A DNA stretch of 64,000 nt from Piscinibacter lacus (GTDB lineage Bacteria > Pseudomonadota > Gammaproteobacteria > Burkholderiales > Burkholderiaceae_C). The notes under the pieces were generated by a model. It was not told where the DNA came from. It did not search any database and saw only the letters and a program-made list of their open reading frames with translations. The stretch lies in assembly GCF_016735685.1 (NCBI RefSeq), contig NZ_JAERRA010000001.1, positions 1,612,001 to 1,676,000 of the forward strand, in the 5' to 3' direction. Shown piece by piece: positions 39,333 through 64,000 of this stretch; positions within the stretch are counted from its first letter, which is position 1, and every line of letters starts with the position of its first letter. The translations under genes and the position numbers were made by a program.

Positions 39333-39362
39333 GGTTGTCCTTCAAGAGTTGTCCTGGAGAAC

Positions 39363-39529: not shown

Positions 39530-39530
39530 C

Positions 39531-39605: not shown

Positions 39606-39607
39606 GC

Positions 39608-42559
39608 ATGCTTGCTTTCGCCCCTGGCGCCCGCGTCGTCATCCGCGACGAGGAATGGCTGATTCGACGCGTCGACCCCTCCACCGACGGGGGATGGCTT
39701 CTCACCTGCGACGGCGTGTCCGAGCTCGTCCGTGGCCGCGACGCGCTGTTCCTGACCGAGCTGGAAGACCAGATTGAGGTGCTCGACCCGGCCGAGACCC
39801 GGCTGGTCGCCGACGACAGCCCCACCTACACCGCCTCGCTGTTGTACCTGGAGAGCATGCGTCGGCGCAGTGTCGCGAACGACGAGCGCATCCACTTGGG
39901 CCACCGCGGGGTGATGAACTTGGTGCCCTACCAGCTTGACCCGGCGCTACAGGCGCTGCGTCAGCCGCGTTCGCGCATCCTGATTGCCGACGCGGTGGGC
40001 CTGGGCAAGACGCTGGAGGCCGGCGTGCTGGCCACCGAGCTCATCCAGCGCGGCCGCGGCAAGCGCATCCTGGTCGTCACCCAGAAGGCCATGCTCACCC
40101 AGTTCCAGAAGGAATGGTGGAGCCGCTTCTCCATCCCGCTGGTGCGGCTGGACTCGGTGGGGCTGGCGCGGGTGCGCAACCGCATCCCGGCGAATCACAA
40201 CCCGTTCAACCACTTCGACCGCAGCATCATCTCCATCGACACGCTCAAGAGCAATCTCGAGTACCGCAACTATCTGGAGAACGCTTGGTGGGACATCATC
40301 GTCATCGACGAGTGCCACAACGTCGCGGCCCGCGCCGGTGAATCGGGCCTGTCGCGCCGGGCCCGCCTGGCGCGCCTGCTGGCCACCCGGTCCGACACCC
40401 TGGTGCTGCTGTCGGCCACGCCCCACGATGGCTCGGCACGCAGCTTCGCGTCGCTGATGAGCCTGCTCGACCCGACGGCCATTTCCGACCCCGACCACTA
40501 CACGCCCGAAGACTTCCGCAGCAAGGGCCTGGTCATCCGCCGCTTCAAAAAGGACATCCGCGACCAGGTCTCGGCCGACTTCCAGGAGCGCGAGACCACC
40601 TGCCTTCGCGAGAAGGCCTCGGCGCTGGAGGAAGCGGCCTACCGCGCGCTGCTGGAGGTGCGCTTCACCCAGGGCGGCCAGCACAAAGCCGGGCGGCAGC
40701 AGGAGCTGCAGCGCATCGGCATGCAGAAGGCGCTGTTCTCCAGCCCCAAGGCCGCGCTGGAGTCCACCCAGCGCCGCATCGCCCTGCTGCGCGGCAAGGA
40801 CAGTCCTAGCGATGACGAGCGTACCGAGGTCATGGGCCTGGACGAGCTGCGCCTGGCCTTGCAGGCCCTGGTCGATGACCCCTCGGCCAAGAGCTTCAGC
40901 CGCTACCAGAAGCTGCTGGAGCTGCTGCGCTCGGCCACCTTCGGCTGGGCCAAGGACGACGCCAACGACCGCCTCGTCATCTTCTCCGAGCGCATCGAGA
41001 CGCTGAACTGGCTGAAGGAACGCCTCACCGCCGACCTGCAGCTCAAGCCCAAGCAACTGGAGGTGCTGCACGGCGGCATGGCCGACACAGAGCAGCAGGC
41101 CCTGGTTGAGCGCTTCGGCCGCCTGGACGACCCGCTGCGCGTGCTGGTGTGCTCCGACGTGGCCAGCGAAGGCCTGAACCTGCACTACTTCTGCCACCGG
41201 CTGGTGCACTTCGACCTGCCCTGGTCGCTGATGACCTTCCAGCAGCGCAACGGCCGCGTGGACCGTTATGGCCAGAAGCACCGGCCTCACATCGTCTACC
41301 TGTTCACCGAGGCAGTGACCGAGAAGATTCGCGGCGACCTGCGCATCCTCGAAATCCTGGAGCAGAAGGACGAGCAGGCTAACTTCAACCTGGGCGACCC
41401 GTCGGCCTTCCTGAACGTCTACGACCCCGACAAGGAGGTCGAGAAGGTCAGCGACTACATGGCCGGCGGCATGACGCCTGAGCAGGTCGAGGCCGCGCTG
41501 GACCAGTCGGCCGCAGCCAAGGGCTCGGACGACGGTGCCAACGAAGGCGACTACCTGCTGGAACTGTTCGGTGGCGGTGACGCAGCGGCCGAGGCCGCAG
41601 CCCAACCGACCGGCAACAGCCTCAACCACATCGAAGAGCCCGCCACGCTGTTCGACAGCGAGTACCACTACGCTAAGGCCGCGCTCACCCAGCTCAACCA
41701 GGGCCAGACCCTGTGCCAATGGACCTCGCTCGACGCCGAGCGCCTGGTCTCGCTGACCGCCCCGCGCGACCTGCAGGAACGCCTGCGCCAGCTACCCCGC
41801 GAGGTGCAGGCCGACAACGACTACTACGCGCTGACGGCCGATACCCAGCGCATGGCCGATGCCATCGAAGCCGCCCGCCAGGCCCGCGCCGAGGAAGAGA
41901 CCTGGCCCAAGCTGCACTACTTGTGGCCGCAGCACCCCATCGTTGAATGGCTGGGCGACCGCGTGCTCACGCACTTCGGGCGTCACTGCGCGCCCTTGCT
42001 GCAGAGCGTGCACCTTCAACCCGGTGAACAGGCCTTCGTGCTGATGGGCCTGGTGCCCAACCGCAAAGGCCAGCCGCTGCTGGTCGAGTGGCAGGTGGCG
42101 CACAGGAAAGTCGACGCCGCTGGCCAGGGCGAATTCACCCTGCAGCCCTTCGATGCCTTCGCTGCCCGCGCCGGCCTCAAGGCGGGCAAGCTGCCCAACC
42201 GCGGCCAGCTCGCCGAGGGCGCGCCGCTGCAGCAGGCGATGCAAGGCGCGCTGCCGAAGGCCGTGACCGCCATGCGCTCGCACATGGTGGCGAAACAGGC
42301 CGCCTTCTCCGCCGGCCTGAACGAGCGCCTGCGCACCACGCTGGCTGAGCTGGAGCGCCTGCAAGGCCGCCAGGTGGAGCAGCTCACTCTGGACCTCGAA
42401 CGCCAGCTGGAGACCGTCAAGCGCGGTCGCTTTGAACACCGCAAGCAGCAAATCAACCGGGTCTTCGACGACTATCGCCAGTGGGTGCACGACACCCTGA
42501 CCACCGAACCGCAGCCCTGGATTCAAGTATTGGCCGCCGTGACCAGCGCTGGAGCCTGA
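39608..42559 (+). CDS. drmD: DrmD-like SNF2 helicase (DISARM class 1 type)
   Basis: A 983-residue superfamily 2 ATPase. An N-terminal SH3-like block (residues 5-60) is followed by the helicase core: ADAVGLGKTLEAG (residues 128-139), DECH (234-237), LLSATPHDG near 262, and the C-terminal lobe with CSDVASEGLNLHYF and QQRNGRVDRYGQ near residue 550. The rest is a long helical region. Length, N-terminus and pairing with a large adenine methylase point to DISARM DrmD. GGAAG eight bases before the ATG is a good ribosome binding site. The methylase starts two bases after its stop. Role by family: translocation on DNA in anti-phage defence. Confidence 0.8.
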   Translation: MLAFAPGARVVIRDEEWLIRRVDPSTDGGWLLTCDGVSELVRGRDALFLTELEDQIEVLDPAETRLVADDSPTYTASLLYLESMRRRSVANDERIHLGHRGVMNLVPYQLDPALQALRQPRSRILIADAVGLGKTLEAGVLATELIQRGRGKRILVVTQKAMLTQFQKEWWSRFSIPLVRLDSVGLARVRNRIPANHNPFNHFDRSIISIDTLKSNLEYRNYLENAWWDIIVIDECHNVAARAGESGLSRRARLARLLATRSDTLVLLSATPHDGSARSFASLMSLLDPTAISDPDHYTPEDFRSKGLVIRRFKKDIRDQVSADFQERETTCLREKASALEEAAYRALLEVRFTQGGQHKAGRQQELQRIGMQKALFSSPKAALESTQRRIALLRGKDSPSDDERTEVMGLDELRLALQALVDDPSAKSFSRYQKLLELLRSATFGWAKDDANDRLVIFSERIETLNWLKERLTADLQLKPKQLEVLHGGMADTEQQALVERFGRLDDPLRVLVCSDVASEGLNLHYFCHRLVHFDLPWSLMTFQQRNGRVDRYGQKHRPHIVYLFTEAVTEKIRGDLRILEILEQKDEQANFNLGDPSAFLNVYDPDKEVEKVSDYMAGGMTPEQVEAALDQSAAAKGSDDGANEGDYLLELFGGGDAAAEAAAQPTGNSLNHIEEPATLFDSEYHYAKAALTQLNQGQTLCQWTSLDAERLVSLTAPRDLQERLRQLPREVQADNDYYALTADTQRMADAIEAARQARAEEETWPKLHYLWPQHPIVEWLGDRVLTHFGRHCAPLLQSVHLQPGEQAFVLMGLVPNRKGQPLLVEWQVAHRKVDAAGQGEFTLQPFDAFAARAGLKAGKLPNRGQLAEGAPLQQAMQGALPKAVTAMRSHMVAKQAAFSAGLNERLRTTLAELERLQGRQVEQLTLDLERQLETVKRGRFEHRKQQINRVFDDYRQWVHDTLTTEPQPWIQVLAAVTSAGA

Positions 42560-42561
42560 CC

Positions 42562-47727: not shown

Positions 47728-47747
47728 CTCATGCCATGAGCCACTCC
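47721..47747 (+). promoter_or_regulatory. Hairpin across the methylase stop codon
   Basis: GGAGTAGCTCAT pairs with ATGAGCCACTCC at 11 of 12 positions over a 3-base loop; the methylase stop codon is inside the stem. No T-run follows, so it is more likely an RNA-processing or stability element than a full terminator. The 105-base gap behind it holds further GC-rich inverted repeats and separates the drmD-drmMI pair from the rest of the locus. Confidence 0.5.
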
Positions 47748-47832
47748 GTTCGGAGAATGGGCTTCGGCCGCAGCCGAGCGGCCGCCACCAACCGTCCGGC
47801 GCACTGACCAACCAGGGAGTAACAAGAACACC

Positions 47833-48837
47833 ATGCGATTGACACCCATCCCGAAGCGAGAACTGAAGAACGTCGGTCCGGCCATCTGGCGGGCCGTCGA
47901 TGTGATGGAGAAAGAGTTCGGCGCACAGCTGACCCATGACTCCGGTCACGACGGGGACAACGGCGAGGACGCCACTACCTGGATATTCACCTTCCCGCGC
48001 CACGCCGATGCCCAGGTGGCTGTCGCCATGAACGTCAGGAAGCTGAGCATGCTCATGCGCGGCAAGACCCTGGACGGTCGGCCGTTCGATGGCGTGGCGT
48101 CTGGCTTGGCGAAGTTCGAGAAGCGCTACACCAATCCCGACAAGGGCGTGGCCAGCAGCGTGCTGGGCTCCCGTGCGCCGTACTTGAATCCTTCATCGAC
48201 CAATCCGCTGTGGCGTGTCGTTCCAGCCACCGGCGAGATTTCGGACCTGTTGCGCCTGTACCTGAACACCGGCTCCGCCACGGCTCCGGTCGAGGCACTC
48301 GCCGAAGATGCTGTGGAGCCACCCGCGGCGCCAGCTCCCGCCGAGCCGCCCGCACTGGACCCGAAGGGCCTTGCCGGCGGCCAGCGGGCCCCTGTCGATG
48401 CCGAGACCTTCGAGGCGCTGCTGGAGCGGCGCTCCGAGGTCGGTCAGGCCGGCGAACTGCTTGCGGTGCAGGACGAGCTCAGCCGCTTGGCCGGGCTGGG
48501 ATGCGCGGAGCCGCATCGCTGGGTGGAGCGCGTGGCACTGGTGGACGTTGGTCGGGGCTACGACATCGCGTCGACCTGGCCTGGACATGAGCGGTTCATC
48601 GAGGTCAAGAGCACCACCTCTGCCAGCGGCGGGCTGTTCATCACCAGCAACGAGCGCCGCGTCTTGGCGGACCTGGGCGAGCGGGCCTGGCTGTACCGCG
48701 TCGTCCTCAAGGCCGACGGCACGGGGGAGGTCGTCATCCGGCTGCAAGACCCAATGCGAGCGTTGCCGCCAGAGGCGTTCGAGCCGGTGGTCTTCCAGGT
48801 AGGGGCTGGAGCGCTGAGTCAGGCCGCCGGGGTATAG
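47833..48837 (+). CDS. DUF3883 domain protein
   Basis: A 334-residue protein. The N-terminal 140 residues form an unassigned alpha/beta region. A Pro/Ala-rich linker lies around residues 155-185. The C-terminal domain shows GYDIASTWPGHERFIEVKST near residues 240-258 and LFITSNERR, the pattern of DUF3883, a PD-(D/E)XK-like domain found in many defence loci and attached to helicases or sensors. The E-V-K triad suggests that nuclease activity is possible. It is the first gene after the hairpin-rich gap. Confidence 0.72.
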   Translation: MRLTPIPKRELKNVGPAIWRAVDVMEKEFGAQLTHDSGHDGDNGEDATTWIFTFPRHADAQVAVAMNVRKLSMLMRGKTLDGRPFDGVASGLAKFEKRYTNPDKGVASSVLGSRAPYLNPSSTNPLWRVVPATGEISDLLRLYLNTGSATAPVEALAEDAVEPPAAPAPAEPPALDPKGLAGGQRAPVDAETFEALLERRSEVGQAGELLAVQDELSRLAGLGCAEPHRWVERVALVDVGRGYDIASTWPGHERFIEVKSTTSASGGLFITSNERRVLADLGERAWLYRVVLKADGTGEVVIRLQDPMRALPPEAFEPVVFQVGAGALSQAAGV

Positions 48838-48884
48838 CGGGCATCGAGGCGCCGCGACAGGAAAACAAGAGGCAGGGGGAAGAA

Positions 48885-51044
48885 GTGGACAAGGCGGAGA
48901 GCACGAAGGAACTGAGACTGGACCGCCCGTTGCGGGCCGGGACGGCGCTTGACGCCGATGCGCTGGACCGCCGGGCCTTTGCCAGCCGGGTCACCGAAGT
49001 CCTGCGACGCATCACGCCGGACGAAGGTCTCGTGGTGTCGGTCGAAGGGCCTTGGGGCAGCGGCAAGACCTCGGTTCTGGCGATGGTTGAAGAACTGCTC
49101 AAGGCTGAACCTGACGGCGAGCGCCCGCTCGTCGTTCACTTCAACCCCTGGCTGATTGGTGACCGCGACGCCCTGCTGAGGCAGTTTCTCGCCAGCATCG
49201 CCAAGGCTGTCCGCCTGACCGACCATGCCAAGGAGGGCAAGCGGGTCGCGAAGGAGCTCAAGACCTATTCGAAGGCCTTCGATGTCCTGAAACTGATACC
49301 CGGTGCGGAGCCGTGGGCCAGCATCGTCAAGTCGGTGGTGGAGTCCGTCGGCGACGCCACCGGCGCTGCCGCCGAGCACAAAACGCCTGATGTCGAGGCA
49401 CGAAAAGACGCGCTGGAGAAGGCGCTTCGAAAGTTCCCGCAGCGCATCGTCGTCCTGCTGGACGACCTGGACCGCCTGTATCCCGCCGAGGCCTACGAAA
49501 TGGTGCGCATCGTCAAGGCGGTGGGCGACCTTCCCAACGTCGGCTACGTCTTGGCCTGGGATGAGAAGTACGTCAGCGCTGCGCTGGAGCGGCTCAACGT
49601 GCCGTTCGCCGTCAGCTACCTCGACAAGGTCGTCCAGGTACGGCTGCCGATTCCACCGCTGTCGTTCCAGCAGCGCATGGCGCTGATGAATCAAGGGCTG
49701 CAGCGACTTCCGCCTGAAGCCCTGGTTGCCCACTTCCCCAACGGGGACGACCGCCTCGCTTCGCTGTTCCATGCTGGGCAGAGGGAACTCGTCGAGCAGC
49801 CCCGTGACGTCGTTCGACTGTTCGATGTCGTTGCTGCTATTGAGCCAGGCCTCCGCGGCGAAGTGCACCTGGCGGACATGTTGGGGCTGGCCACCTTGAT
49901 GACCAAGGCGCCGGCGGTGTACGACCTTCTTTGCCGAACGCCGCAGGCGTTCGTGGGGCGACGGCCGGGAGCAAGCGCCTCGTTTGACAAGCCGCTCGAA
50001 GTCATCCAGAGCTTCGCAGACGAGCGAAACAAGGCCATCGACAGCTATCCATACGCCAAGGGGGTGAGGGAGGTTGTGCACTGGCTGTTTCCTCAGACCG
50101 CCAAGGCCGATGACGCGTTCAGCCTGGACCGTGTGGTGTTCTTGGAGGGGCACCTCGCGCACCCGGAGCGTCTTCAAGTGGCTCTGCACCTGAGCGCCAG
50201 GCCTGGTGACCTCAGCTTGGTGCGTGTTCGGCAGTACCTGTTCGAGCCAGCCAAGAGAGGTGAGATTGCGGCTGCGCTGCAGCAAGACAACTGCATCGAC
50301 TTCATTGAGCAGCTCGGCAACATGGCGGAGGGGCTGGGCACCGAGGTTGGAGTCGATGCAGCGTCGTTAGCCAAAGACATTGCGCGGCTTATCGATACCC
50401 AGCCTTTCGTTCGCCGGGCAAGTGAGCGCCATGACGTGTTCGTCATGCGCGCAGACCGAGTCGCAGAGCGGGCAATCGGTCAGCTGGCCAAGCGGCTGGA
50501 TGAGGCTGAAGCAGGTGCGCTTGCCGAGCACATCCTTTGCGACCCGCATGCACTGTCCATGGCAGCAGCGCTTGCGGCGACGAGCTTCATGGCTGAAGAC
50601 GGCGACCCCGAGGACGGTCTGAAAGTGCCTGCCGACGCTCGGAATCGAGCGCTCTCTGCCTATGCAGGCAACGTCGAAGGGACAGCCAAGACGGGCGAGT
50701 TGTTTGCCAAAGTGTCGCCCGGCTTTGCCCTGTGGGTCTTGACGCGACTTATGCCTGAGCGATGCAAGGCCGTCTTCAAGGCTGTCCAGCATTGGGAGCC
50801 GTCATTGGACACTTTCGTGGAGGCCATGCTGAGGCATTCCTTCGACAGCAATAACGGGCAAACGTATCGGCTTCCGAAGGAGCGAGAGCACCTGGAGAAC
50901 TACGTCGCTCTTGAAGAGCTGAAGACACTCGCGCTGGAGCGCTTGAAGGATGAATCTATGACCTATCCGCTTCGGGCCGCCTGGAGGGCGATAGTTGAAG
51001 AGAAGTCCATCTATGGCAAAGACGGTACGTTGGCCCGCCGCTGA
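48885..51044 (+). CDS. KAP family P-loop NTPase
   Basis: A 719-residue NTPase of the KAP family. Walker A is GPWGSGKT (residues 55-62) and Walker B is VVLLDDLDRL with Asp 193/194, followed by VGYVLAWDEKYV, the typical sensor strand. Many KAP proteins carry membrane helices inserted near the Walker motifs; none are visible here, so this is a soluble form. The C-terminal 450 residues are helical. It begins with GTG, preceded by AGGGGGA, 47 bases after the DUF3883 gene. KAP NTPases recur in anti-phage systems, but the action of this one is unknown. Confidence 0.8.
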   Translation: MDKAESTKELRLDRPLRAGTALDADALDRRAFASRVTEVLRRITPDEGLVVSVEGPWGSGKTSVLAMVEELLKAEPDGERPLVVHFNPWLIGDRDALLRQFLASIAKAVRLTDHAKEGKRVAKELKTYSKAFDVLKLIPGAEPWASIVKSVVESVGDATGAAAEHKTPDVEARKDALEKALRKFPQRIVVLLDDLDRLYPAEAYEMVRIVKAVGDLPNVGYVLAWDEKYVSAALERLNVPFAVSYLDKVVQVRLPIPPLSFQQRMALMNQGLQRLPPEALVAHFPNGDDRLASLFHAGQRELVEQPRDVVRLFDVVAAIEPGLRGEVHLADMLGLATLMTKAPAVYDLLCRTPQAFVGRRPGASASFDKPLEVIQSFADERNKAIDSYPYAKGVREVVHWLFPQTAKADDAFSLDRVVFLEGHLAHPERLQVALHLSARPGDLSLVRVRQYLFEPAKRGEIAAALQQDNCIDFIEQLGNMAEGLGTEVGVDAASLAKDIARLIDTQPFVRRASERHDVFVMRADRVAERAIGQLAKRLDEAEAGALAEHILCDPHALSMAAALAATSFMAEDGDPEDGLKVPADARNRALSAYAGNVEGTAKTGELFAKVSPGFALWVLTRLMPERCKAVFKAVQHWEPSLDTFVEAMLRHSFDSNNGQTYRLPKEREHLENYVALEELKTLALERLKDESMTYPLRAAWRAIVEEKSIYGKDGTLARR

Positions 51045-51181
51045 GCCGGGCAGTCCACGCACTTCTGCCAAAAGAAGAATCGAATGCCGCCCTCACTTTT
51101 CGCCTGCGAAATTCCGACCGGACTGAAGAAGCGCCGAGCTTCAGGCTTCGTGCTCGTTGACGGCGAAATGAGGGACCAGCC

Positions 51182-54100: not shown

Positions 54101-54319
54101 GACGCCGACCTGAAACGCAAACGTGAAGAAGCCACCGAGCGGATTGCCCGGTACCAAGCTTCATCGAACCCGCGCCACAGAGGCCTGCTGGGTATGGAAC
54201 GCACGAAGCTGCGGCAGCTGGAGCAGAAGTACGAAGAGCGCAAGCTCGCCAACGGCCTGAGGGAGGCCTTGGACCCACGCCAGAAGGATGTTTCCTCCGG
54301 CGTCATACGGGTGGAGTGA
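51182..54319 (+). CDS. Second SNF2/RapA-like helicase
   Basis: A 1,045-residue superfamily 2 ATPase clearly related to the DrmD-like protein. ADEVGLGKTIEAG covers residues 123-135, DEAH lies at 246-249, LLSATPIQM near 280, and the C-terminal lobe has SSEVASEGVDLQFSSL and EQRIGRIDRIGQ near residue 625. The last 150 residues form a charged coiled coil (RKREEATERIARYQASS, EQKYEERKLANG). An acidic Glu-rich insertion lies near residue 460. It follows the KAP gene after 137 bases and is directly followed by the Hsp70-like gene, so the two may act as a pair. Confidence 0.8.
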   Translation: MNPGDRVRLIDNPSRIGVLTSDPPTGEGRRRRLVVAFPDGTEPILASSLERVEAETNDPYLLMQRGQYGGASHLRGAITLARLSGKLANLIYSLNTTNTKFLPYQFKPVLQFLDSPSRGIVIADEVGLGKTIEAGLIWTELRARQDARRLLVVCPAMLREKWCAELANRFGVKAQMVDAGELLEHLSSAKADRTEEFALVASMQGLRPPKHWNSESSPSQSSAAKLARFLEAAGDDEPLLDLVVVDEAHYLRNRGTQTHRFAALLRPVTDGLALLSATPIQMRSTDLFNLLHLLDEDAFPMEWTYDHSVRANAPIVALRDRLKRDPPVTQEEFKAALQESVALRWFEDSEQIEHLLKNLPTDDDLRNVRSRADYAELLDRLNPRAKVITRTLKREVDELRVTREPRTLRIEMSAAERDFYEGVTEAVQEYCESVDVSEGFLLTIPQRQMSSCMAAACMGWKRRQEEQAELTQETVTELEGETVEQEAAPGPATQRGTGELLSILSGIARKCGDYERLAADDSKFTALVKNLKGYWRENVGKKVVLFAFYRNTLYYLAQRLAEAGVRSIVLHGGMDKTEVLRSFENDAAVQVLLSSEVASEGVDLQFSSLLVNYDLPWNPARIEQRIGRIDRIGQAEAKILIWNLVYEDTLDERVHDRLLERLNVFRQALGSMEELLGAEVRKLTVDLLSHRRTPKQEEERIGDAAMALERNRRDEEQLNAQASKLLGHGDYIQNKAKAAMDLGRYIRGDDLYHFVKDYLETSFPGSRVMVNDEPVRKGLIELSMDARVAFHAFLADAKLLGRTTVLDNRPRQLWFDNQAGHVARDVEKVTQDHPLVRFVSEQQKKRSTKDGYFPTSAVQLPASRVAGVASGTYVYVVIRWTFSGPRDVERLVYEARCIETGLALEPDAAESLVNAAANHGADWQAAAKNILDHKRISALQDDCRATIEEHFDASKAAQLRENRDRVREMNASLDADLKRKREEATERIARYQASSNPRHRGLLGMERTKLRQLEQKYEERKLANGLREALDPRQKDVSSGVIRVE

Positions 54320-54342
54320 CAGGCACGAGGGAGGCAGAAGGC

Positions 54343-55947
54343 ATGAGAGGCAATCGCTTGAAACGGGCACCCAAGAGCGCGCAGCGTGCGCCGGCGCGTC
54401 CCTACCATCGGCCGAACTTCTACTTTCTTCGCGACAAGCCCGTACGCCAACCTGTCGTCCCCACCGAACCCGCGCTGACTTTCGACGTCCACGACAACGT
54501 TTGTCTTGGCTGGAAGCCGGATGAGTTGGGGTCGAGTGACCCCCTGCAGCGCGATGAGGTGCTCGGAGCCAGGCTCGAACCACCCGGGGCGACAGCAGGC
54601 CCGGCGCGAGAGCTGGTGATGGGTCTGGACTTCGGCACATCGTCGACCAAGGTGGTGATTGCCGACAGGACCATGAACGCTGCGTATGCGGTCCCGTTCA
54701 TGGATTCCGTCGGTGTGGCGAGCTACTTGTTGCCATCGGCGCTGCTGGAAACGGCGGAAGGCGTCTATGCACTGGCCGGGTCCGGGAAGCGACTTGCCGA
54801 CCTGAAGCTGGCCATGCTGTCGGCCTTGTCTGACGAGCGGGCATGTGCCAGGGGCTGCGCGTTCCTGGCGTTGACGATTCGACAGGCCCGAGCCTGGCTC
54901 TACGAATCCAAGGGTGACCAGTACCTGCGGGCAGACATCCTTTGGACCTTGGCGATTGGCCAGCCGGCCGACCAAGCAGCCTCGGAGCATCACCGCAGGC
55001 ACTTTGAGCAGCTGGCCAAGGTAGCCTGGCAGCTGGCGGGCAGTCAGGGCTCCATCGGGGTGGAGACTGCCTTGAATGCTTGGAGCCTCCGAGCTGAGCT
55101 GAACCTGGACGATGAGCTCGAAGTCCGTCCGATGGCCGAGCTGTCTGCCCAGATTCACGGCTTCGTCAGTTCCTCGCACTTCGATGCGCGTTTGCCGAAC
55201 ATCTACCTCTTGGTCGATGTTGGCGCTGGCACAGTGGACGCGTCGCTCTTTCACGTGCGGAAGGACCGAGGCGGCACGGTCTCATTCGACTTCTTCACGC
55301 ATGCCGTCGAACTACTTGGGGCGGCGAACCTCAACCGTGCCCGACTGGCATGGTGGCTGGCTCAGCTTCGCTACGTGCAGGGTCAGCTCGAGCCTGGCAG
55401 CGACCAGGTCGCAAAGCGCATCGGCACCACGGTCGCAGAGCTGGAAAGCATGAAGCTGCCGACGGAGTTCCGTGGCCGCTACCCGGATTCCTATCGCAGT
55501 TATGTCAAGGGCGTGGAGGTTGGCTTCGAAGGCGGCGCGAAGAATCCGGATGAAGATTTTTACCAGCGAGTCCGCAACCAGGTGGCAGGCAAGGTGCTCT
55601 ATGGAGCCTGGAAGCAGATGCTGCTGACCCAAGAGGCCGTTCGCGGCATGCCGTTCTTTCTGTGCGGGGGCGGCGGCCGCCACCCCTTCTATGCAGCGCT
55701 CAAGACGCGCCTGCAGAAAACGGATGGCTGCACCTGGCTCAATGCCAAGCCTCGCGAACTGGCGCTGCCGACGAACATTAGTGCGCCGGGCGTGGCGCAC
55801 GGTGACTACGACCGGCTGTCGGTCGCCTATGGTCTCAGCCAACTCAACCCTGGAACCTTTGAGCGCGTCGTCGCCCTGAAGCCCAGAGTGTTTGCATCCG
55901 AGGAGACGGACTGGAACACGGTCACCGTGGACAAGTCCGTCTGCTGA
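54343..55947 (+). CDS. Hsp70/actin-fold ATPase
   Basis: A 534-residue protein with the actin-superfamily nucleotide site: phosphate-1 loop GLDFGTSSTKVV (Asp 96), phosphate-2 loop LVDVGAGTVDASLF (Asp 292) and adenosine motif FLCGGGGRHPF near residue 442. The first 90 residues are a basic, Pro-rich extension. It lacks the substrate-binding half of DnaK, so it is a stand-alone ATPase like those next to some helicases. The ATG at 54,343 with GAGGCAGAAGG upstream is preferred; a GTG overlapping the previous stop would add nine residues. It lies between two large helicases and may regulate assembly of the complex. Confidence 0.75.
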   Translation: MRGNRLKRAPKSAQRAPARPYHRPNFYFLRDKPVRQPVVPTEPALTFDVHDNVCLGWKPDELGSSDPLQRDEVLGARLEPPGATAGPARELVMGLDFGTSSTKVVIADRTMNAAYAVPFMDSVGVASYLLPSALLETAEGVYALAGSGKRLADLKLAMLSALSDERACARGCAFLALTIRQARAWLYESKGDQYLRADILWTLAIGQPADQAASEHHRRHFEQLAKVAWQLAGSQGSIGVETALNAWSLRAELNLDDELEVRPMAELSAQIHGFVSSSHFDARLPNIYLLVDVGAGTVDASLFHVRKDRGGTVSFDFFTHAVELLGAANLNRARLAWWLAQLRYVQGQLEPGSDQVAKRIGTTVAELESMKLPTEFRGRYPDSYRSYVKGVEVGFEGGAKNPDEDFYQRVRNQVAGKVLYGAWKQMLLTQEAVRGMPFFLCGGGGRHPFYAALKTRLQKTDGCTWLNAKPRELALPTNISAPGVAHGDYDRLSVAYGLSQLNPGTFERVVALKPRVFASEETDWNTVTVDKSVC

Positions 55948-55965
55948 ACAGAAATAGAACAGGCC

Positions 55966-58900
55966 ATGCTTCCATCACTCCTCGCCCGCGACATACAGAC
56001 GGGCTTGAAACAGTTCCTCGTCTCCGGCTTCGAGCCGGCCGACGCCTTCATGCACGGCCTGATGAGCCGGTTCACCGAAGACGAGGACGCCTGGCTCAAG
56101 GGTCCGTACGTCCAGATGGGGCTGCCGTTCGCCGTAGGCTCGGCGGGGCGGACCTTCTTCAAGACCTTCGAGACCGAGCACCCCGGCTACCACCACCAAG
56201 AACTGGCTTGGAAGCGGCTGTCCAGCCAGCACCAGGCCGCCAGCACGTTGGTGGCCACTGGCACGGGTTCTGGCAAGACTGAGTGCTTCCTGTTCCCGCT
56301 GCTGGACCATTGCACGCGAGCGCGTGCCGCAGGCGAGGCGGGCGTGAAGGCGCTGGTCATCTACCCCATGAACGCCTTGGCCACGGACCAGGCGAAACGC
56401 ATCGCGGAGCGCGTTGCCCAGACGCCAGCCTTCGCCGGCATGCGGGTGGGCCTCTACGTCGGCGGGAACGCTGGCAAGCCAGGCGAAGGCATGGTGATGA
56501 CGCCGACCAGCGTCATCACCGACCGCGACACGATGCGCAAGCATCCGCCAGACATCTTGCTGACCAACTACAAGATGCTGGACTACCTGATGTTGCGGCC
56601 GAAGGACCGGCAGCTCTGGGCACAGAACAAGCCGACCACGCTGCGCTACGTGGTGGTGGACGAACTGCACACTTTCGACGGTGCACAAGGCACCGACCTG
56701 GCCCTGCTGCTGCGCCGGCTGCGTGCCCGGCTGCAGTCACCGGAGGGGCACCTGATTTGCGCGGGCACATCGGCCACGCTGGGGGGCTCGTCGGATACCG
56801 AGCCCCTGCGCGAGTACGCCCGTCAGGTGTTCGGCGTGCCGTTCGGCGCCGATGCGGTGGTGACCGAGAACCGCCTCACTGTCGATGCCTTCCTGGGCGA
56901 CGCGATGGTCGAGCACATGTTCATGTGGCGGCCCGAGCTGGACGCGGTGCTGCAGCCGGCTCAGTACGCCAACCCTGTGGATGCGGTTCGGGCGTGGTTC
57001 GGCGTGTTCTTCCCGGGGCTGGCTCAACCTTCTGGGCCGGATGAGGTGGCATCAGCCGCTTGGCGTCAGGCACTTGGTCAACACCTGAAGGAGCACCAGC
57101 TCTTCGTCAACCTCCTGCGGTTGATGAAGGGCGGCGTCGTCAGCTACAGCGCGCTGGAGGATGCCTTTGCTCGCAACATGCCTGCGGCCAGCCGCGTTCA
57201 GGTGGCCAGGGTGCTTGACGGCATGCTGGTGCTGGTGGCCTGGGCGCTGCGGGAGGGCAAGCAGCCGCTGGTGACGCTGCGTGTTCAGCTGTGGGTGCGC
57301 GAGCTGCGCCGCATGGTAGGCAAGCTGGCGCTGGACCCGCAGGACGTTCGGCTGCGCAGTGAACGGGACCTGCCCGGGGAGCGCGACGGTGTGTACCTGC
57401 CCATGGTGCAGTGCAGCCAGTGCCGCACCACGGGCTGGCTGTCGCGCCTGGTGCAGGGCAGCAGCAAGCTCTCGACCAAGCCCGACGAGATTTACAACAC
57501 TTGGTTCTCCCGCCGGCCGGAGGCGGCCAGGCTCTACGCAGCCAAGAGTCTCGGACGCTCGCATGTCCAAGGCGTCCATCAATACGCCTGCGTGGCTTGC
57601 GGCAACGTGCAGGCCGGCGAGGGGGCGTGCCTGGCCTGCGCGCACCAGGAGTTGCTCTACGTCTTTCAGGTCACGGCGCAGCGCTCGCATGTGGTCGGCA
57701 ACGCCCAGTACACCCGGCACGACGACACCTGCCCCAGTTGTGGCGAGCGAGATGAGTTGCTTCTGCTCGGTGCCCGGAACGCCACACTGGGCTCGCAGGT
57801 GGTGGAGGCGAGCTGGGCCAGCCTGTTCAACGACGACAAGAAGCTGATTGCGTTCTCGGACTCTGTGCAGGACGCCGCTCACCGCGCCGGCTTCTTCGGT
57901 GCGCGCACTTGGCAGAACAACGTGCGCATGGCCTGGGCCCATGTGTTGGATGAGCTGGGCGTGGTGCGTATGCCGTGGTCCGAGCTCTTGTCCCGCGCCG
58001 CCCAGCGCTTTGACGCTCCGGATTCGGTGCTGCACATGACGCCGGAGACCCTGGTGGCCGAGTTCCTGGCGCCGAACATGAGCTGGCAGCACGACTGGTC
58101 GGTCGAGTTGCTGGAGAAAGGGCAGTTGCCGGCCAACTCGCGCCTGCCGGGCAAGGTGAGGAAGCGCATGCTGTGGCAGCTGTTTAGCGACCTGACCTAT
58201 CAGAGCCAGCGCGGCCGCACGCTGGAGCGCATTGGCAAGGTGACGATGTCGGTGCCGTGGGAGCGCATCCAGGAAGTTGCAGCGGAGCTGCTGCCCCGCT
58301 TGCGCGAGGGGTTCGGCGCCCACGGGCTGGACCTGCCGGTGCTGTCGCAATGGCTCTGGGGCACGCTGGCCCACATGCGCCGCCGCGGTGGCGTGATGCA
58401 CCCGGAAATGGTGGCCTACGCGGGCGACGGCCAGGTGTGGCAACTGGCCAAAGGCGCAGGGCGTCGCGAATGGATGCCGGCCATGGGCGACTACACGCCG
58501 CACCCGGTCTTCCTGACGCTGGGCAAGCACTCGTCGTTTGACAAGCTCAGCGGCAACAGCCGTCCCACTTGGTACGACCGCTGGGCGGCTGCTGCGCTGG
58601 GCCAGCAAATGCTGCTGGCCAAGGGCATGGCCCCCGAGCTGTACGCCGCTGCGTTCGACGCGCTGCTGAAGGCGGGCGTCCTGCTTCGCACCACCCACCA
58701 TCAAGGCGACACGCTGGCTCTGAACCCCGAGGCGCTGGAGGTCGACACCGAGGTGGCCTTCATCTCGACCACCGGCAGCAAGCGCCGGCTGACCGTGCCG
58801 CGTCGGGTGGCCGAGCACCTGCTGGGCATGCCCTGCCTGGACGCCGTGGAGTCCATCTACGAACAACTCATTCCCGAAGCCGCTGATTGGTGGGTGCGAC

Positions 58901-61900
58901 GCTTCAGCCAGGGTGACCTGCGCCGGGTGATTGCCGCCGAGCACACCGGCCTGTTGGACAGGCAGGAGCGCGAGGCGCTGGAACAGCGCTTCAAGGACAA
59001 GAAGCCACGCCCGTGGTTCGAGAACCTGCTGTCGGCCACGCCGACGCTCGAGATGGGCGTGGACATCGGCGACCTGTCGTCGGTGTTGCTGTGCTCGGTG
59101 CCGCCGAATCAGGCCAGCTTTCTGCAGCGCATGGGACGTGCGGGGCGCCGGGATGGCAATGCCATGACGACGACGCTGGCCGACGGCAACAGCCCGCATG
59201 ACCTGTACTTCTTCGCCGAGACCGAGGAGATGATTGCCGGCGAGGTGGCGCCCCCTGGCGTCTTCCTGCAGGCCGCCGAAGTGCTGCGCCGGCAGTTGTT
59301 CGCGTTCTGCATGGACGACTGGGTGTCCAGCCTGCGCAATGCCAACGCCTTGCCTGACAAGACCTCCCAGGCGCTGGACGCCATGGAGCAGGCCAAGCTG
59401 GACCGCTTCCCGGCCATCTTCTGCGACCACGTCCTGAAGCACGAGCAGCGGCTGTTCGACAGCTTCATGGCCTTGCTCGGCAAAGACGTCGACGACGTCG
59501 TCCACGGCAGGCTATGGGACTTCATGCAAGGTCAAGGCGAGGCCGACGGCCTGCGAACCCGGCTGACCAAGGCCCTGGAAGAGCTGGTCGAGGAGCGCAA
59601 AACCTACAAGAAGCGCAAGGACGAACTCGACAGGGCCAAGACCAAGGCCCAGCAGAAGCCGCAGGACGAGGCCACGAAGAACGAAATCGATGAGCTGCTG
59701 CGCGAGCGCGACAAAATGCTCGAGCTCATCAAGGAAATCAACAGCCGAGACCTGTTGAACACCCTGACCGATGCCGGCCTGATACCCAACTACGCATTCC
59801 CGGAGTCAGGCATCCAACTGAAGTCCGTGTTGTGGCGCAAGCGCGGCGAAGACGAGCCCGGCCAGGGGGCCTACGTGGCCCTGGCAACGCAGAAGTACGA
59901 GCGGCCAGCGCAGTCGGCGCTGTCGGAGTTCGCGCCGGAGAACCGCTTTTATGCCAACCAGCGCCGGGTTGAAGTTGACCAAATCAATATGAACCTGGCC
60001 AAGGCGGAGGACTGGCGTTTCTGCCCGAGCTGCCACCACATGCAGAACCTGACGGTGGAGGCCGACGTGCACGCCACCTGTCCGCACTGCGGTGACCCGA
60101 TGTGGACAGACGGTGGCCAGAAGCACACCTTGCTGCGCTTCCGACAGGCGATTGCGAACAGCAACGACACCGACGTCCGCATCGACGACAGCTCGGAAGA
60201 CCGGGAGCCGCGGTACTACGTCCGCCAGTTGATGGCCGACTTCCAGCCCGCATACATCCGCGAGGCCTGGCAGATTCCCACGGGGGGCACGCCGTTTGGC
60301 TTCGAGTTCATCTCACGTGTGACGTTCCGCGACGTCAACTTCGGCGAGCTGGCCAAGCCGGGTGAGGCCTTCAAGGTGGCCGACAAGGAATCGCAGCGCC
60401 CCGGCTTCAAGCTGTGCAAGCACTGCGGCAAGGTGCAGAAGCCGCCGCGCCGCGGGGCTGGGACGGCCGAGCAGAGCCACAGCTTCGACTGTCCGAAGCA
60501 TGGCAGTGACGACCCGGCCAACCTGCTGGACTGCCTGTACCTGTACCGCGAGTTCGAATCCGAGGCGCTGCGCATCCTGGTGCCGTACACCAAGAACGGT
60601 GTCGATGAGAAGGTAGTGCAGTCCTTCATGGCCGCTGTGCAGCTTGGCCTGAAGCGCCGCTTCGGCGGCAAGGTGGACCACCTGCGCATGGTCCTGCAGG
60701 ACGAGCCCGGCAAGGACGGCGGGCCGCGCAAGCACTACGTGATGCTCTACGACTCAGTGCCGGGCGGCACGGGCTATTTGCACCAGTTGCTGGCCCATGA
60801 TGCCAAGACACTGGCCGACGTGCTGCGCATGGCGCTGGATGCGCTGACCGGCTGCTCGTGCAACCAGGACCCTGAGAAGGACGGCTGCTACCGCTGCCTG
60901 TACCAATACCGGCTCGGTCGCAGCATGGAGCTCGTTTCACGTGACAACGCCAAGGCCGTGCTCACGGAGCTGGTGGGCTCGCTGCCGTCGCTGGAGCGGG
61001 TCAAGACCATCTCGGACATCTACATCAACCCGAACTTCGATTCGGTCCTCGAGGCTCGCTTCATCGATAGCCTGAAGAAGATGAGCGGTGTGGCGGGGCT
61101 ACCGCCTATCAAGTTGGTGCAGGACGTTGTACATGGCAAGTCGGGCTTCGTTCTTGAGGTGGGCAGCCAGCGCTATCGTATTGAGCCCCAGTGCGAGTTG
61201 AATGGCGACGCTGGAGTGCCAGTGCCGAGCAAGCCGGACTTCGTCATCTGGCCCTGGGCCTCGGGCTCCAAGCGGCGGCCCGTGGCGGTTTTCTGTGACG
61301 GCTGGGCGTACCACAAGGACTGCATGCGTGAAGACGCGCTGAAGCGCAGCGCCATCGTCGCCAGCGGGAAGTTCTGGACCTGGTCGGTGACGCACCAGGA
61401 TGTCTCGGCCGCCATTGACGGCAACGCCGAGTCTGACCTGGACCCGGCGACTGTGACGCTCAATCGGCACGACGGTGGTAAGGCGCCGCCGAGCGTGCCC
61501 AGGGCACAGGAAAAGGCGTTCACCCAGCATGCGGTCGCGCGGTTGCTGCAGTGGCTGGCAGCCCCAGCCGGCCCCACGGACGTGGACAGTGCTGTGGAGG
61601 CGCAGCAGCGCAACGCGGTGTGGCTTGAGTTCCTGATGGTGCCGTCGACCGCGGAGGACAAGGCCGCAGCTGAAGTGCAGCGGGCGCCATGGCTTCCGCA
61701 ACTTCCAATGCACGTCCGAGAGCCCGGACCTGGCTTTGCGCCGGTGATGTCGAAGACCAACGGCGCCGCTTCGGTGCTGGGATGGTGGCCGGTGCTGCTC
61801 GCCAAAGGCCTGCCTTCACATCAAAACTGGGCCAGCCCGACTGCTGTGCTGTTGGATGCCTCAGTGGCTGGGGACGAGGATGCGCTGCACCGGGCTTGGC

Positions 61901-62388
61901 GTCGGTGGCTGCAGTTGTTCAACACCCTGCAGTTCCTGTCGGGCACCGTCCTCGTGACTGGCGAAGGCCTGGCTGCGCATGACTACGACGCGCTGGTCCC
62001 CGCGGCGGCCGGTACGACTCCGGCGGCGCCGGCAGCGCAGGCGGCACTCAACGCGGCCTGGCAGGCCGTTGTCGAGCAGGCGTTGGAAGCGCTTGCGCCG
62101 GGGCTCAAGCAACTGGCCCAGTCCGGCGCATCGCTGCCCGAAGTGGGCCTGGAGCTGGTAGACGCCAAGGGGCGCGTCTCGGCGGATTGCGAGCTGGCAT
62201 GGGTGCAGGAGAAGGTCGTCGTCCTGCGCTCCGACCAGGCCGACCTCGTCGAGCTGTGGGGCGCGGAGAACTGGAAGGTCGTGCTACTGGACGAGGCCAT
62301 GAACCTTGTCGTGGGCGCACCGTGGTCTGTGGCCGCTGCTGCGAGCCTCGGTCTGGAACTCAATGTGAATGAAGGAGGGGCAGCGTGA
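55966..62388 (+). CDS. DruE-like giant helicase with DUF1998/MZB and Vsr-like domain
   Basis: A 2,140-residue superfamily 2 helicase. Walker A is GTGSGKT (99-105), motif II DELH (232-235), then AGTSATLGG, and motif VI QRMGRAGRR (1054-1062). A charged coiled coil covers about 1205-1260. Zinc sites follow: CPSC at 1353-1356 with CPHC near 1377, and KLCKHCGK near 1485. The MZB/DUF1998 motif GCSCNQ...CYRC spans 1629-1644. Near the end, KPDFVIW (1756) and VAVFCDGWAYH (1773-1783) resemble a Vsr-type PD-(D/E)XK nuclease fold. Size and architecture match Druantia DruE; DISARM splits similar functions between DrmA and DrmB. Confidence 0.82.
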   Translation: MLPSLLARDIQTGLKQFLVSGFEPADAFMHGLMSRFTEDEDAWLKGPYVQMGLPFAVGSAGRTFFKTFETEHPGYHHQELAWKRLSSQHQAASTLVATGTGSGKTECFLFPLLDHCTRARAAGEAGVKALVIYPMNALATDQAKRIAERVAQTPAFAGMRVGLYVGGNAGKPGEGMVMTPTSVITDRDTMRKHPPDILLTNYKMLDYLMLRPKDRQLWAQNKPTTLRYVVVDELHTFDGAQGTDLALLLRRLRARLQSPEGHLICAGTSATLGGSSDTEPLREYARQVFGVPFGADAVVTENRLTVDAFLGDAMVEHMFMWRPELDAVLQPAQYANPVDAVRAWFGVFFPGLAQPSGPDEVASAAWRQALGQHLKEHQLFVNLLRLMKGGVVSYSALEDAFARNMPAASRVQVARVLDGMLVLVAWALREGKQPLVTLRVQLWVRELRRMVGKLALDPQDVRLRSERDLPGERDGVYLPMVQCSQCRTTGWLSRLVQGSSKLSTKPDEIYNTWFSRRPEAARLYAAKSLGRSHVQGVHQYACVACGNVQAGEGACLACAHQELLYVFQVTAQRSHVVGNAQYTRHDDTCPSCGERDELLLLGARNATLGSQVVEASWASLFNDDKKLIAFSDSVQDAAHRAGFFGARTWQNNVRMAWAHVLDELGVVRMPWSELLSRAAQRFDAPDSVLHMTPETLVAEFLAPNMSWQHDWSVELLEKGQLPANSRLPGKVRKRMLWQLFSDLTYQSQRGRTLERIGKVTMSVPWERIQEVAAELLPRLREGFGAHGLDLPVLSQWLWGTLAHMRRRGGVMHPEMVAYAGDGQVWQLAKGAGRREWMPAMGDYTPHPVFLTLGKHSSFDKLSGNSRPTWYDRWAAAALGQQMLLAKGMAPELYAAAFDALLKAGVLLRTTHHQGDTLALNPEALEVDTEVAFISTTGSKRRLTVPRRVAEHLLGMPCLDAVESIYEQLIPEAADWWVRRFSQGDLRRVIAAEHTGLLDRQEREALEQRFKDKKPRPWFENLLSATPTLEMGVDIGDLSSVLLCSVPPNQASFLQRMGRAGRRDGNAMTTTLADGNSPHDLYFFAETEEMIAGEVAPPGVFLQAAEVLRRQLFAFCMDDWVSSLRNANALPDKTSQALDAMEQAKLDRFPAIFCDHVLKHEQRLFDSFMALLGKDVDDVVHGRLWDFMQGQGEADGLRTRLTKALEELVEERKTYKKRKDELDRAKTKAQQKPQDEATKNEIDELLRERDKMLELIKEINSRDLLNTLTDAGLIPNYAFPESGIQLKSVLWRKRGEDEPGQGAYVALATQKYERPAQSALSEFAPENRFYANQRRVEVDQINMNLAKAEDWRFCPSCHHMQNLTVEADVHATCPHCGDPMWTDGGQKHTLLRFRQAIANSNDTDVRIDDSSEDREPRYYVRQLMADFQPAYIREAWQIPTGGTPFGFEFISRVTFRDVNFGELAKPGEAFKVADKESQRPGFKLCKHCGKVQKPPRRGAGTAEQSHSFDCPKHGSDDPANLLDCLYLYREFESEALRILVPYTKNGVDEKVVQSFMAAVQLGLKRRFGGKVDHLRMVLQDEPGKDGGPRKHYVMLYDSVPGGTGYLHQLLAHDAKTLADVLRMALDALTGCSCNQDPEKDGCYRCLYQYRLGRSMELVSRDNAKAVLTELVGSLPSLERVKTISDIYINPNFDSVLEARFIDSLKKMSGVAGLPPIKLVQDVVHGKSGFVLEVGSQRYRIEPQCELNGDAGVPVPSKPDFVIWPWASGSKRRPVAVFCDGWAYHKDCMREDALKRSAIVASGKFWTWSVTHQDVSAAIDGNAESDLDPATVTLNRHDGGKAPPSVPRAQEKAFTQHAVARLLQWLAAPAGPTDVDSAVEAQQRNAVWLEFLMVPSTAEDKAAAEVQRAPWLPQLPMHVREPGPGFAPVMSKTNGAASVLGWWPVLLAKGLPSHQNWASPTAVLLDASVAGDEDALHRAWRRWLQLFNTLQFLSGTVLVTGEGLAAHDYDALVPAAAGTTPAAPAAQAALNAAWQAVVEQALEALAPGLKQLAQSGASLPEVGLELVDAKGRVSADCELAWVQEKVVVLRSDQADLVELWGAENWKVVLLDEAMNLVVGAPWSVAAAASLGLELNVNEGGAA

Positions 62389-64000
62389 GCCTCAAACCCA
62401 AAGTGGCTTTGTCGCAGGACTTCCTGCTGCAACTCTCGAAGCTCCCATCCAGCGTTCACTCCAAGGTGATGAAGTGGGCCATCCAGTTCCAGTCGGACCC
62501 GACCAGCCCCGGCATCAACTACGAGTACATCAACGGTGCCCGTGACCCGAACCTGAAGTCGGTGCGCCTCGACCGCGACTGGCGCGGCATCGTGTTCAAG
62601 CCCAACAGCGGGGACGTCTACGTGCTGCTGTACGTGGACCATCACGACGATGCCTACCGTTGGGCCGAGAACCGCAAGCTGGCCATCAACCCGGTGACGG
62701 GAGCGATGCAGATGGTCATCATCGAAAGCGTCGCTGCAGTCGAGGCAGCTCCCGCACAACCAACACCGGCGGCAAAGGCGGTCCAAGCGCAGACGGCTGA
62801 GGCGCAATTGCCGCTGTTTGGCGGACTTGAGGACCGCGAATTGCTGAGCCTGGGCGTGCCAGAGGAGATGTTGGCCGAGGTGCGGCACCTTACGTCAGAA
62901 CCTGAATTGGACGCGCTGCAGGGCCGCCTGCCGGTGGAAGGCTACGAAGGGCTGTTCCTTGTCGCAGCGGGCGACACCGTCAGTCAGGTGCTGAATGCGC
63001 GCGAGACCCGGGTGGACCGTAAGGTCGACACGTCCGACTTCGCGGCGGCCCTGGCGACCCCGGAATCACAGTCACGCTTTGTCATCGTCGACGACGACGA
63101 GGCCATGCTGGCCATCATGAACGCGCCGCTGGCCCAGTGGCGCGTGTTTCTGCACCCGACCCAGCACAAGCTGGCCTCCGGCGACCGCAGTGGCCCGGTG
63201 CGGGTGCTGGGCGGTGCCGGCACAGGCAAGACGGTCCTTGCCATGCACCGTGCGCGATGGCTGGCCGACAACCGCACGCTGGATGGCAAGAAGGTGCTGT
63301 TCACGACCTTCACCAAGAACCTGGCGAGCGACATCGAGCAGAACCTGCGCACGCTGTGCGGCAGCGCCACCCTCGCCAAGCTGGAGGTGCGCAACCTGGA
63401 CGCCTGGGTGCACGGCTTCATGCGCAGCCGCAAGCTGGAGCACCGCATCGTCTACGACCGCAAGCAGGACGCCGCCCTGCAGGCCTGGCAGGCCGCCATG
63501 GCGGTGCGCGACACCACGCTGGACCTGCCGGACAACTTCTATGAGTTGGAGCTTGAGCAGGTCGTGTTGGCCCAGGGCATCACGACACGCGACCAGTATC
63601 GAACGGCGCGCCGCACTGGCCGTGAGAGCGTGCTGAGCCGCACCAAGCGCGATGCCGTGTGGCCGGTATTCGAGGAGTACCGCGGCCAGCTTAGCTCACG
63701 AAAGCTCAAGGAGGTCGACGACGCCTATCGAGAGATTGCTGAACTGCTGCTTGCCGAGGACAGCCATGCCTCGGCGTACAGCGCCATCGTCATCGACGAG
63801 ACGCAAGACCTGGGACCGCAGGCATTGAAGCTGCTTCGCGCCATGATTCCCGCAGGCGCCAACGACCTGTTCTTCGTCGGCGATGGTCACCAACGCATCT
63901 ACAGCCGGCACCGCGCCGCGATGAGCAAGTGCGGCATCGACATCCGGGGACGAGCCCGCAAGCTTTACCTGAACTACCGGACAACCGACGAAATTCGCCG
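62385..64000 (+). CDS. UvrD-type helicase with RelE-like N-terminus (3' partial)
   Basis: The frame starts with GTG in a GTGA overlap with the DruE-like gene and runs off the window after 538 codons. Residues 1-115 resemble the RelE/ParE fold (VKSVRLDRDWRGIVFKP-like strands, then YVLLYVDHHDDAYRWAENRK). A linker follows to about residue 200. The superfamily 1 core then shows GGAGTGKT (276-283), DETQD (471-475) and LNYRTTDEI at the window edge. Known UvrD proteins with such N-termini occur in defence islands. Whether the RelE-like part is an active RNase cannot be judged. It is translationally coupled to the giant helicase. Confidence 0.78.
   Translation, partial: MSLKPKVALSQDFLLQLSKLPSSVHSKVMKWAIQFQSDPTSPGINYEYINGARDPNLKSVRLDRDWRGIVFKPNSGDVYVLLYVDHHDDAYRWAENRKLAINPVTGAMQMVIIESVAAVEAAPAQPTPAAKAVQAQTAEAQLPLFGGLEDRELLSLGVPEEMLAEVRHLTSEPELDALQGRLPVEGYEGLFLVAAGDTVSQVLNARETRVDRKVDTSDFAAALATPESQSRFVIVDDDEAMLAIMNAPLAQWRVFLHPTQHKLASGDRSGPVRVLGGAGTGKTVLAMHRARWLADNRTLDGKKVLFTTFTKNLASDIEQNLRTLCGSATLAKLEVRNLDAWVHGFMRSRKLEHRIVYDRKQDAALQAWQAAMAVRDTTLDLPDNFYELELEQVVLAQGITTRDQYRTARRTGRESVLSRTKRDAVWPVFEEYRGQLSSRKLKEVDDAYREIAELLLAEDSHASAYSAIVIDETQDLGPQALKLLRAMIPAGANDLFFVGDGHQRIYSRHRAAMSKCGIDIRGRARKLYLNYRTTDEIR

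Follow-up and report, generated by a model that had tools for sequence, protein, structure and literature searches.

The closest described relative of the locus considered here is ARMADA Type II, a published defence system set out in a preprint (Bell et al. 2025; PMC12458937). As the main text of that preprint gives it, the gene order is strict: ArmA, a BrxHII/RapA helicase; ArmB, a PglX-like methylase; ArmC, a YprA helicase with a Vsr nuclease; and ArmD, a RelE-GajB helicase. The same text reports that the four Arm genes are sufficient for anti-phage defence in E. coli, that all four are required, and that cells remain intact; anti-phage activity is published for E. coli only. The subject of this account is a 24.9-kb operon of Piscinibacter lacus, found at the end of a 64,000-nucleotide (nt) stretch of contig NZ_JAERRA010000001.1 (assembly GCF_016735685.1, positions 1,612,001 to 1,676,000 of the forward strand), hereafter ‘the window’. 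The operon consists of eight genes on one strand, separated by short gaps or overlapping, and encodes six ATPases, just as the original prediction, made from the DNA letters, had said. By alignment, genes 1, 2, 7 and 8 are the ArmA, ArmB, ArmC and ArmD of the preprint's ARMADA Type II. Four more genes lie between ArmB and ArmC; two of these, for a SNF2-type ATPase (SNF2b) and an Hsp70-fold ATPase, form a conserved two-gene unit, separate from the Arm genes.

The four Arm genes

A tblastn search of plasmids with the DruE-like gene (ArmC) as query returned 62 records at E <= 1e-20. The best match, an E. coli plasmid, carries four Arm genes in the same order, followed by a 315-bp hypothetical gene. 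Identities in the following list are from global alignment to this plasmid; coordinates are those of the window, and the last gene, ArmD, ends 490 bases past it.

39608..42559, + strand: ArmA, BrxHII/RapA-type SNF2 helicase (50.8% over 935 aligned residues)
42481..47727, + strand: ArmB, PglX-like DNA methyltransferase (52.3% over 1573 residues; PADLOC IIG/DrmMI models)
47833..48837, + strand: DUF3883/NOV_C protein with a PD-(D/E)XK-type signature, cargo (PF13020, 3.5e-11)
48885..51044, + strand: KAP-family P-loop NTPase, cargo (PF07693, 3.1e-42)
51182..54319, + strand: SNF2b, second RapA/SNF2-type ATPase (PADLOC ‘DrmD’ model PDLC02623, 863 bits, end to end)
54316..55947, + strand: Hsp70-fold ATPase, nucleotide-binding domain (NBD) only (structure alignment to the Hsp70 fold)
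55966..62388, + strand: ArmC, YprA/DruE-type helicase with MZB (DUF1998) and a C-terminal Vsr-like region (39.0% over 2039 residues; PF09369, 5.4e-13)
62385..64000, continuing to 64490, + strand: ArmD, UvrD/GajB-type helicase with an N-terminal extension (43.5% over 678 residues; UvrD Pfam)

The eight residues mutated in the preprint, as its main text numbers them, match the plasmid motifs at the published positions, and all eight are conserved in the window: the Walker A/B K and D of ArmA (E. coli 136 and 236; window 134 and 234), the G of the S-adenosylmethionine motif and the N of NPPW in ArmB (663 and 1071), K104 and D232 of ArmC, and K282 and D471 of ArmD. ArmA and ArmB are adjacent, in ARMADA order; the true start of ArmB may sit downstream, past the ArmA stop. 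The Vsr-like region of ArmC was called by eye, with D1758, F1776, D1778 and H1783 invariant in four sequences and no domain-model match. The aligned residues of ArmD face an E. coli protein of 704 amino acids (aa); its N-terminal part has no Pfam match, and the RelE-like label is that of the preprint text (PMC12458937).

The labels DrmD, DrmMI, DruE and GajB that PADLOC attaches to the operon are a mark of shared ancestry; profile labels of this kind make ARMADA loci resemble fragments of DISARM and Druantia. The original prediction saw a defence operon akin to those two systems: the relatedness stands, and the hybrid reading is superseded by the ARMADA Type II match. Nor is it a DISARM with its core replaced by other modules; the core is a known one, at 39-52% identity to the E. 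coli plasmid. The mention there of ‘DISARM-related larger arrays’ proved correct, for the core is the ARMADA Type II of PMC12458937. As for a published system with the same genes, the four Arm genes are published in that source and the other four are extra. With this core, the genome can be counted among those that carry ARMADA II, here on a mobile element.

The SNF2b-Hsp70 pair and its company

SNF2b is only 25.8% identical to ArmA, and its best-scoring solved structure is RapA. The Hsp70-like protein may start at 54343, because its closest homologues have 534-535 aa. Its NBD aligned over residues 98-520 of 543, and the protein ends about 20 residues past the nucleotide-binding fold, with no substrate-binding domain. 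Domain-model scans recognised no nuclease or toxin domain in either protein.

Homologues of the Hsp70-like protein numbered 310 at E <= 1e-3 among 7999 scored candidates, and a 30-row Hsp70-like alignment, run against genomes from 84,980 species, gave 66 loci. A clustered Hsp70 open reading frame (ORF) was present in 63 of them; the remaining three (L053, L054 and L067) stand outside the pairing count, and four further loci are cut at the contig start. Of the 59 loci that allow the test, 57 have SNF2b immediately upstream of the Hsp70-like gene and co-directional with it (56 identified by script, and L025 with its overlapping gene calls); L038 and L044 have no SNF2b in that position. Gaps between the two genes run from -29 to +42 nt in 51 of 56 loci. 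Not all loci are independent, since L060 and L061 are near-identical. Among 399 genomes of the order, the source genome included, SNF2b adjoins the Hsp70-like gene in all four that are Hsp70-positive; G231 of this sample and L023, whose contigs are equally long, are probably one record.

The two proteins vary together. Their distance matrices correlate at r = 0.933 over 54 pairs (window included; Hsp70 of at least 420 aa, SNF2b of more than 900 aa), and the best of 2000 permutations reached 0.173. The K/D/E residues of SNF2b are invariant in all 54 pairs, and D105, E275, D301 and D308 of the Hsp70-like protein are likewise kept in all, with T108 in 52 and T306 in 51. No description of the pair was found in the open-access main texts searched (figures, supplements and subscription papers fall outside that scope); the accessible text of PMC11890865 and PMC10952713 contains no mention of Hsp70. 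The pair is probably a new portable accessory module on a known core. A Leptolyngbya plasmid (L071:8176-13634) has the Hsp70-like gene before the SNF2 gene, the reverse order, downstream of type I-D cas1/cas2.

One reading of the Hsp70 fold makes the protein a true chaperone, folding the giant helicases, or else an RNA-binding Hsp70 like CnuD of the CoCoNuT systems, whose Hsp70-like proteins are suggested to bind RNA in the accessible text of PMC11090510. This is improbable: the chaperone architecture of NBD plus substrate-binding domain is not found here; the ATPase motifs are intact, as against the degenerate Walker A-like motifs that the same text gives for CnuD; and the usual partner is a SNF2 ATPase, not McrBC. 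Since the pair combines two ATPases whose motifs are intact and shows no recognised nuclease domain, its most likely role is that of an ATP-driven remodeller assisting its neighbours.

Those neighbours are varied. ARMADA II genes lie within 10 kb of the pair in 8 of the 66 loci, plus the window. The pair is inside the ArmB-ArmC junction in the window, L004 and L051; before ArmA and ArmB in L012, L018 and L020 (ArmA there 54%, 37% and 51% identical to E. coli ArmA by blastp, with ArmC and ArmD beyond the examined stretch); after ArmD in L013 and L046; and on the strand opposite to ARMADA in L017. Weak or partial ARMADA-like matches were excluded from this count (L006, L014 with its 512-aa ArmA-like fragment, L031, L036 and L052). 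A DISARM-like operon of DrmA, DrmB and a NERD helicase, with the pair directly after it, was found by PADLOC scan in L023, and the same gene clusters occur in L024 and L026; this arrangement is possibly a DISARM variant. The pair is also found beside Type I restriction-modification (RM) genes (L059 scanned; same cluster in L060, L061 and L069), Type III RM genes (L010, L025), Mokosh-like genes (L032, L033), a DRT UG19 reverse transcriptase (L068), a DUF499 BREX-related gene (L022) and PDC-S68 (L007 scanned; same cluster in L009). Of the first ten hand-picked neighbour proteins, two had no PADLOC match at E 1e-10.

To see whether genes between ArmB and ArmC are usual, ARMADA loci were sampled with an ArmC alignment (E <= 1e-100), which matched in 7 of 369 genomes from the class, 5 of 399 from the order and 8 of 398 from the phylum, each count including the source genome. 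These samples supply 17 ARMADA genomes besides the source; the stretches of 16 were examined (G891 was left out), several of them short contigs.

A bolder proposal, which we put forward tentatively, makes the pair a new booster module of prokaryotic immunity: an ATP-driven complex for DNA-protein remodelling, portable between many unrelated restriction systems (ARMADA II, DISARM-like, Type I and III RM, BREX-related and DRT), to which it would open protein-covered or transcribed phage DNA. The ArmB-ArmC junction would be a cargo bay where modules of this kind gather (HipBA, GmrSD, kinase, Schlafen-type, dynamin-like and the pair itself). If true, a chaperone-fold ATPase tied to a SNF2 translocase, in several phyla and with very different restriction systems, would give immunity an accessory layer that those systems share.

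Several observations weigh against the main reading, in which the pair acts as a remodeller on behalf of its neighbours. Ten further neighbour genes, scanned with PADLOC at E 1e-5, gave no match in five cases and a weak one in another; all neighbour proteins scanned were hand-picked, with no matched control for defence-island genes. Conservation in the Hsp70-like protein is partly built in, because D301-D308 fall within one of the two patterns used for retrieval. The ARMADA label, carried by 9 of the 59 rows of the Hsp70 tree, requires 8 changes there, and 178 of 500 shuffled labellings came out as low. The label is no more clustered than shuffled ones, which speaks for an association formed repeatedly and independently rather than for co-adaptation with ARMADA. 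The pair is not in the examined stretches of 16 of the 17 non-source ARMADA genomes, so ARMADA II does not need it. In one of these genomes, G953, an SNF2b-like gene of 36% identity lies close to ArmA on the opposite strand, with no Hsp70 match.

A second perspective on the same distribution takes the pair as a stand-alone defence system that merely shares islands or operons with ARMADA, DISARM-like and RM systems. Its shifting position relative to ARMADA (junction, before ArmA, after ArmD, opposite strand), its occurrence beside genes with no PADLOC match, and those 16 stretches that do without it all fit this account. An effector acting alone should carry a nuclease or toxin domain, and none is recognised in either protein; moreover, the pair often stands directly and co-directionally behind large restriction genes. 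The stand-alone account is doubtful when taken by itself, and nearly as likely as the view of the pair as a remodeller.

The ArmB-ArmC junction and its mobile carrier

The ArmB-ArmC junction of the window is 8.2 kb long and holds four genes. The order A-B-C-D is kept in all 12 sampled ARMADA loci that have the four genes on the examined stretch. Spacing between ArmB and ArmC, taken from tblastn ends, is at least 1 kb in 9 of the 13 loci in which both are readable (G542, G643, G729, G341, G129, G336, G299, G846 and G765) and almost nil in the other four (G458, G768, G827 and G953). Pfam-named cargo above cut-off occupies five of the nine filled junctions:

G729: two dynamin-like GTPases, a helix-turn-helix (HTH) gene and HipA
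G129: an HNH protein, an HTH gene and HipA
G341: a protein kinase
G299: a Schlafen AlbA_2 protein
G765: a DUF3368 protein

The junction of G643 has a ParA-like match slightly under the Pfam cut-off, and those of G542, G336 and G846 have no Pfam match among the ORFs scanned. In loci selected by Hsp70, GmrSD genes come directly after ArmB (L004 and L018) or second after it (L012), and the junction of L051 contains SNF2b, Hsp70, TOTE-type genes, an HTH gene and HipA. With genes this varied at the same place in other ARMADA II loci, the junction has the look of a site that takes up cargo recurrently. The preprint's main text, as distinct from its figures and supplements, has no occurrence of Hsp70, KAP, DUF3883, HipA or GmrSD (PMC12458937). 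An HTH gene followed by HipA stands just before ArmC in G729, G129 and L051 (L080:153-5797, L082:12607-14252 and L051:15875-17488), with the dynamin-like GTPases preceding in G729.

The first two genes of the window's junction are local cargo. Residues E208, D244, E257 and K259 of the DUF3883 protein are kept in 99-100% of lettered rows (111 aligned), which we read as a PD-(D/E)XK-type signature. The ATPase part of the KAP NTPase resembles PifA (PADLOC model, 230 bits, residues 8-348), and the protein has no clear membrane segment (best 19-residue hydropathy window 1.2). Membership of DUF3883 and KAP in the conserved unit was rejected, neither having a match at E <= 1e-6 in the other 66 loci; the single plasmid relative of DUF3883 sits elsewhere.

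Could the eight genes nevertheless be one integrated, enlarged ARMADA system that requires every gene? They share one strand, with short gaps or overlaps over the whole operon; L004 repeats the order ArmB-x-SNF2b-Hsp70-ArmC-ArmD; and homologues of Hsp70 and DUF3883 probably share two contigs, one of 60,566 bases (83% and 57% identical) and one of 266,945 bases (57% and 39%). However, four genes suffice in E. coli by the account in PMC12458937, the junction of other ARMADA loci is empty or has other genes, and L004, which follows the window order from ArmB on, replaces DUF3883 and KAP by GmrSD and a gene of 241 aa. A single system of eight genes, as first predicted, is very improbable; four Arm genes, a portable pair and local DUF3883/KAP cargo is much the better description. 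Chance pile-up had been the other possibility raised. It is half borne out: the full set does rarely recur, and the pair is inside none of the 16 sampled ARMADA stretches, but L004 nearly repeats the window from ArmB on.

The operon is carried by an element of 48.7 kb (window 27141-75858) that extends past the window end; in the following list the window's numbering is continued beyond 64000.

27141..27185, + strand: left 45-bp copy of the tRNA-Asn 3' end, presumed attachment site (exact 45-bp match)
35775..37115, + strand: RepA-like AAA_25 ATPase of the element (PF13481, 2.5e-30)
37112..38200, + strand: RepC replication protein of the element (PF06504, 5.4e-15)
74130-75485: tyrosine integrase (PF00589, 2.9e-11)
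75814-75858: right 45-bp copy, outside the window (exact match)
75814-75889, - strand: tRNA-Asn gene, beside the tyrosine integrase

The repeats, the integrase and RepA/RepC together indicate an integrated element. A 31-base pattern from the repeat, allowing up to 2 mismatches, occurs twice in the genome, at the two repeat sites. The element is in line with the proposal in the preprint's text that tRNA-integrated elements spread ARMADA (PMC12458937). An empty integration site was not seen: 14 other genomes of the family lack a match to a protein from the left flank, and relatives have none to the DNA left of the 27141 repeat either. To the right of the tRNA, the core genes of five family members are collinear, in stretches with no tRNA or left-flank match.

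Downstream of ArmD, on the same element, a calcineurin-like metallophosphatase gene is followed by one for a large AAA_27 ATPase (L002:8859-13625, that is, window 64859-69625); the two are perhaps an SbcCD/YhaON-like nuclease-ATPase. Upstream of ArmA, a 1.4-kb stretch contains two overlapping long ORFs, 38527-39825 (-) and 38260-39252 (+), with no Pfam match; these are probably spurious in high-GC DNA, and the stretch may be where the promoter lies.

Proposed working and comparison with known systems

The scheme that we think probable is of an ARMADA II carried by a tRNA-Asn element, whose junction took up DUF3883 with KAP and SNF2b with Hsp70, the second pair remodelling on behalf of its neighbours. 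Gene identities, the pairing, conserved catalytic residues and the mobile context are here matters of sequence; activities are what we infer for all of the accessory genes (DUF3883, KAP, SNF2b and Hsp70-like). ArmB, to judge from its family, would methylate the cell's own DNA and so mark it as self; its NPPW asparagine is needed for defence in E. coli, in the preprint's account (PMC12458937). ArmA would move along DNA and remodel complexes on it. ArmC, on the preprint's domain reading and by the example of DruE, would unwind infection-associated DNA and cut it with the C-terminal Vsr-like nuclease; DruE, its cousin, loads onto 3' single-stranded DNA and cleaves long DNA, according to the accessible text of PMC13192584. 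ArmD, published as required for defence (PMC12458937, main text), would assist as a helicase or RelE-like RNase. The SNF2b translocase and its Hsp70-fold partner are probably one ATP-driven complex: SNF2b would strip or remodel proteins on incoming DNA (RNA polymerase, phage DNA-binding proteins), with the Hsp70-like ATPase as its nucleotide-controlled clamp or recycling factor; the neighbouring restriction enzyme, whichever it is, would thereby gain access to the DNA. KAP and the PD-(D/E)XK-type protein may be a separate sensor-nuclease pair.

Known systems resemble this locus in part. DISARM class 1 shares with it a SNF2 helicase and PglX-like methylase pair, with relatives of DrmD. Domain- and defence-model scans of the locus and of sequence beyond 64 kb, of the kind proposed at the outset, found no drmA, drmB or drmC among the eight genes. 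None was found either among the genes scanned downstream (those for a metallophosphatase, AAA_27, an integrase, PhoH/PIN and proteins with no Pfam match), the rest of the genome being outside this search; against the NCBIfam DrmD model, the two SNF2 proteins score 352 and 434 bits (SNF2b the latter), with a cut-off of 610. Druantia shares ArmC, a DruE-like YprA helicase with DUF1998; it differs in that no other Dru protein is among the eight genes, and in the C-terminal region, Vsr-like here and PLD in Druantia III as the preprint's text has it (PMC12458937). DISARM and Druantia membership was rejected on missing partners and scores.

Three further candidates were set aside. For MADS, the MAD2 methylase model gave 17.1 bits, against a curated 720. 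The PDC-M61B model of PADLOC matches the Hsp70-like protein at one motif only, over 29 residues (E 1.2e-5); PDC-M61A is unmatched in the genome, and likewise in 14 control genomes. In the main text on BREX-related (DUF499) systems (PMC12839542), the terms Hsp70, YprA, DruE, UvrD, DUF1998 and ARMADA have no occurrences.

CoCoNuT CnuD, as the accessible text of PMC11090510 describes it, is likewise an Hsp70-fold ATPase in a restriction-type operon; the protein here differs in being NBD only, with intact motifs and a SNF2 partner, in an operon with no McrBC or CnuB. Closest of all is ARMADA Type II, in the form given by the main text of PMC12458937. The differences are the four extra genes between ArmB and ArmC; the tRNA-Asn repeats, 45 bp here against 16-20 nt there; and the RepA/RepC genes found here, where the preprint has an HUH endonuclease (no search aimed at one was made, and many of the element's genes have no Pfam match). 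Shared are ArmA-ArmB-ArmC-ArmD in order, all eight tested residues, and the tRNA-integrated carrier.

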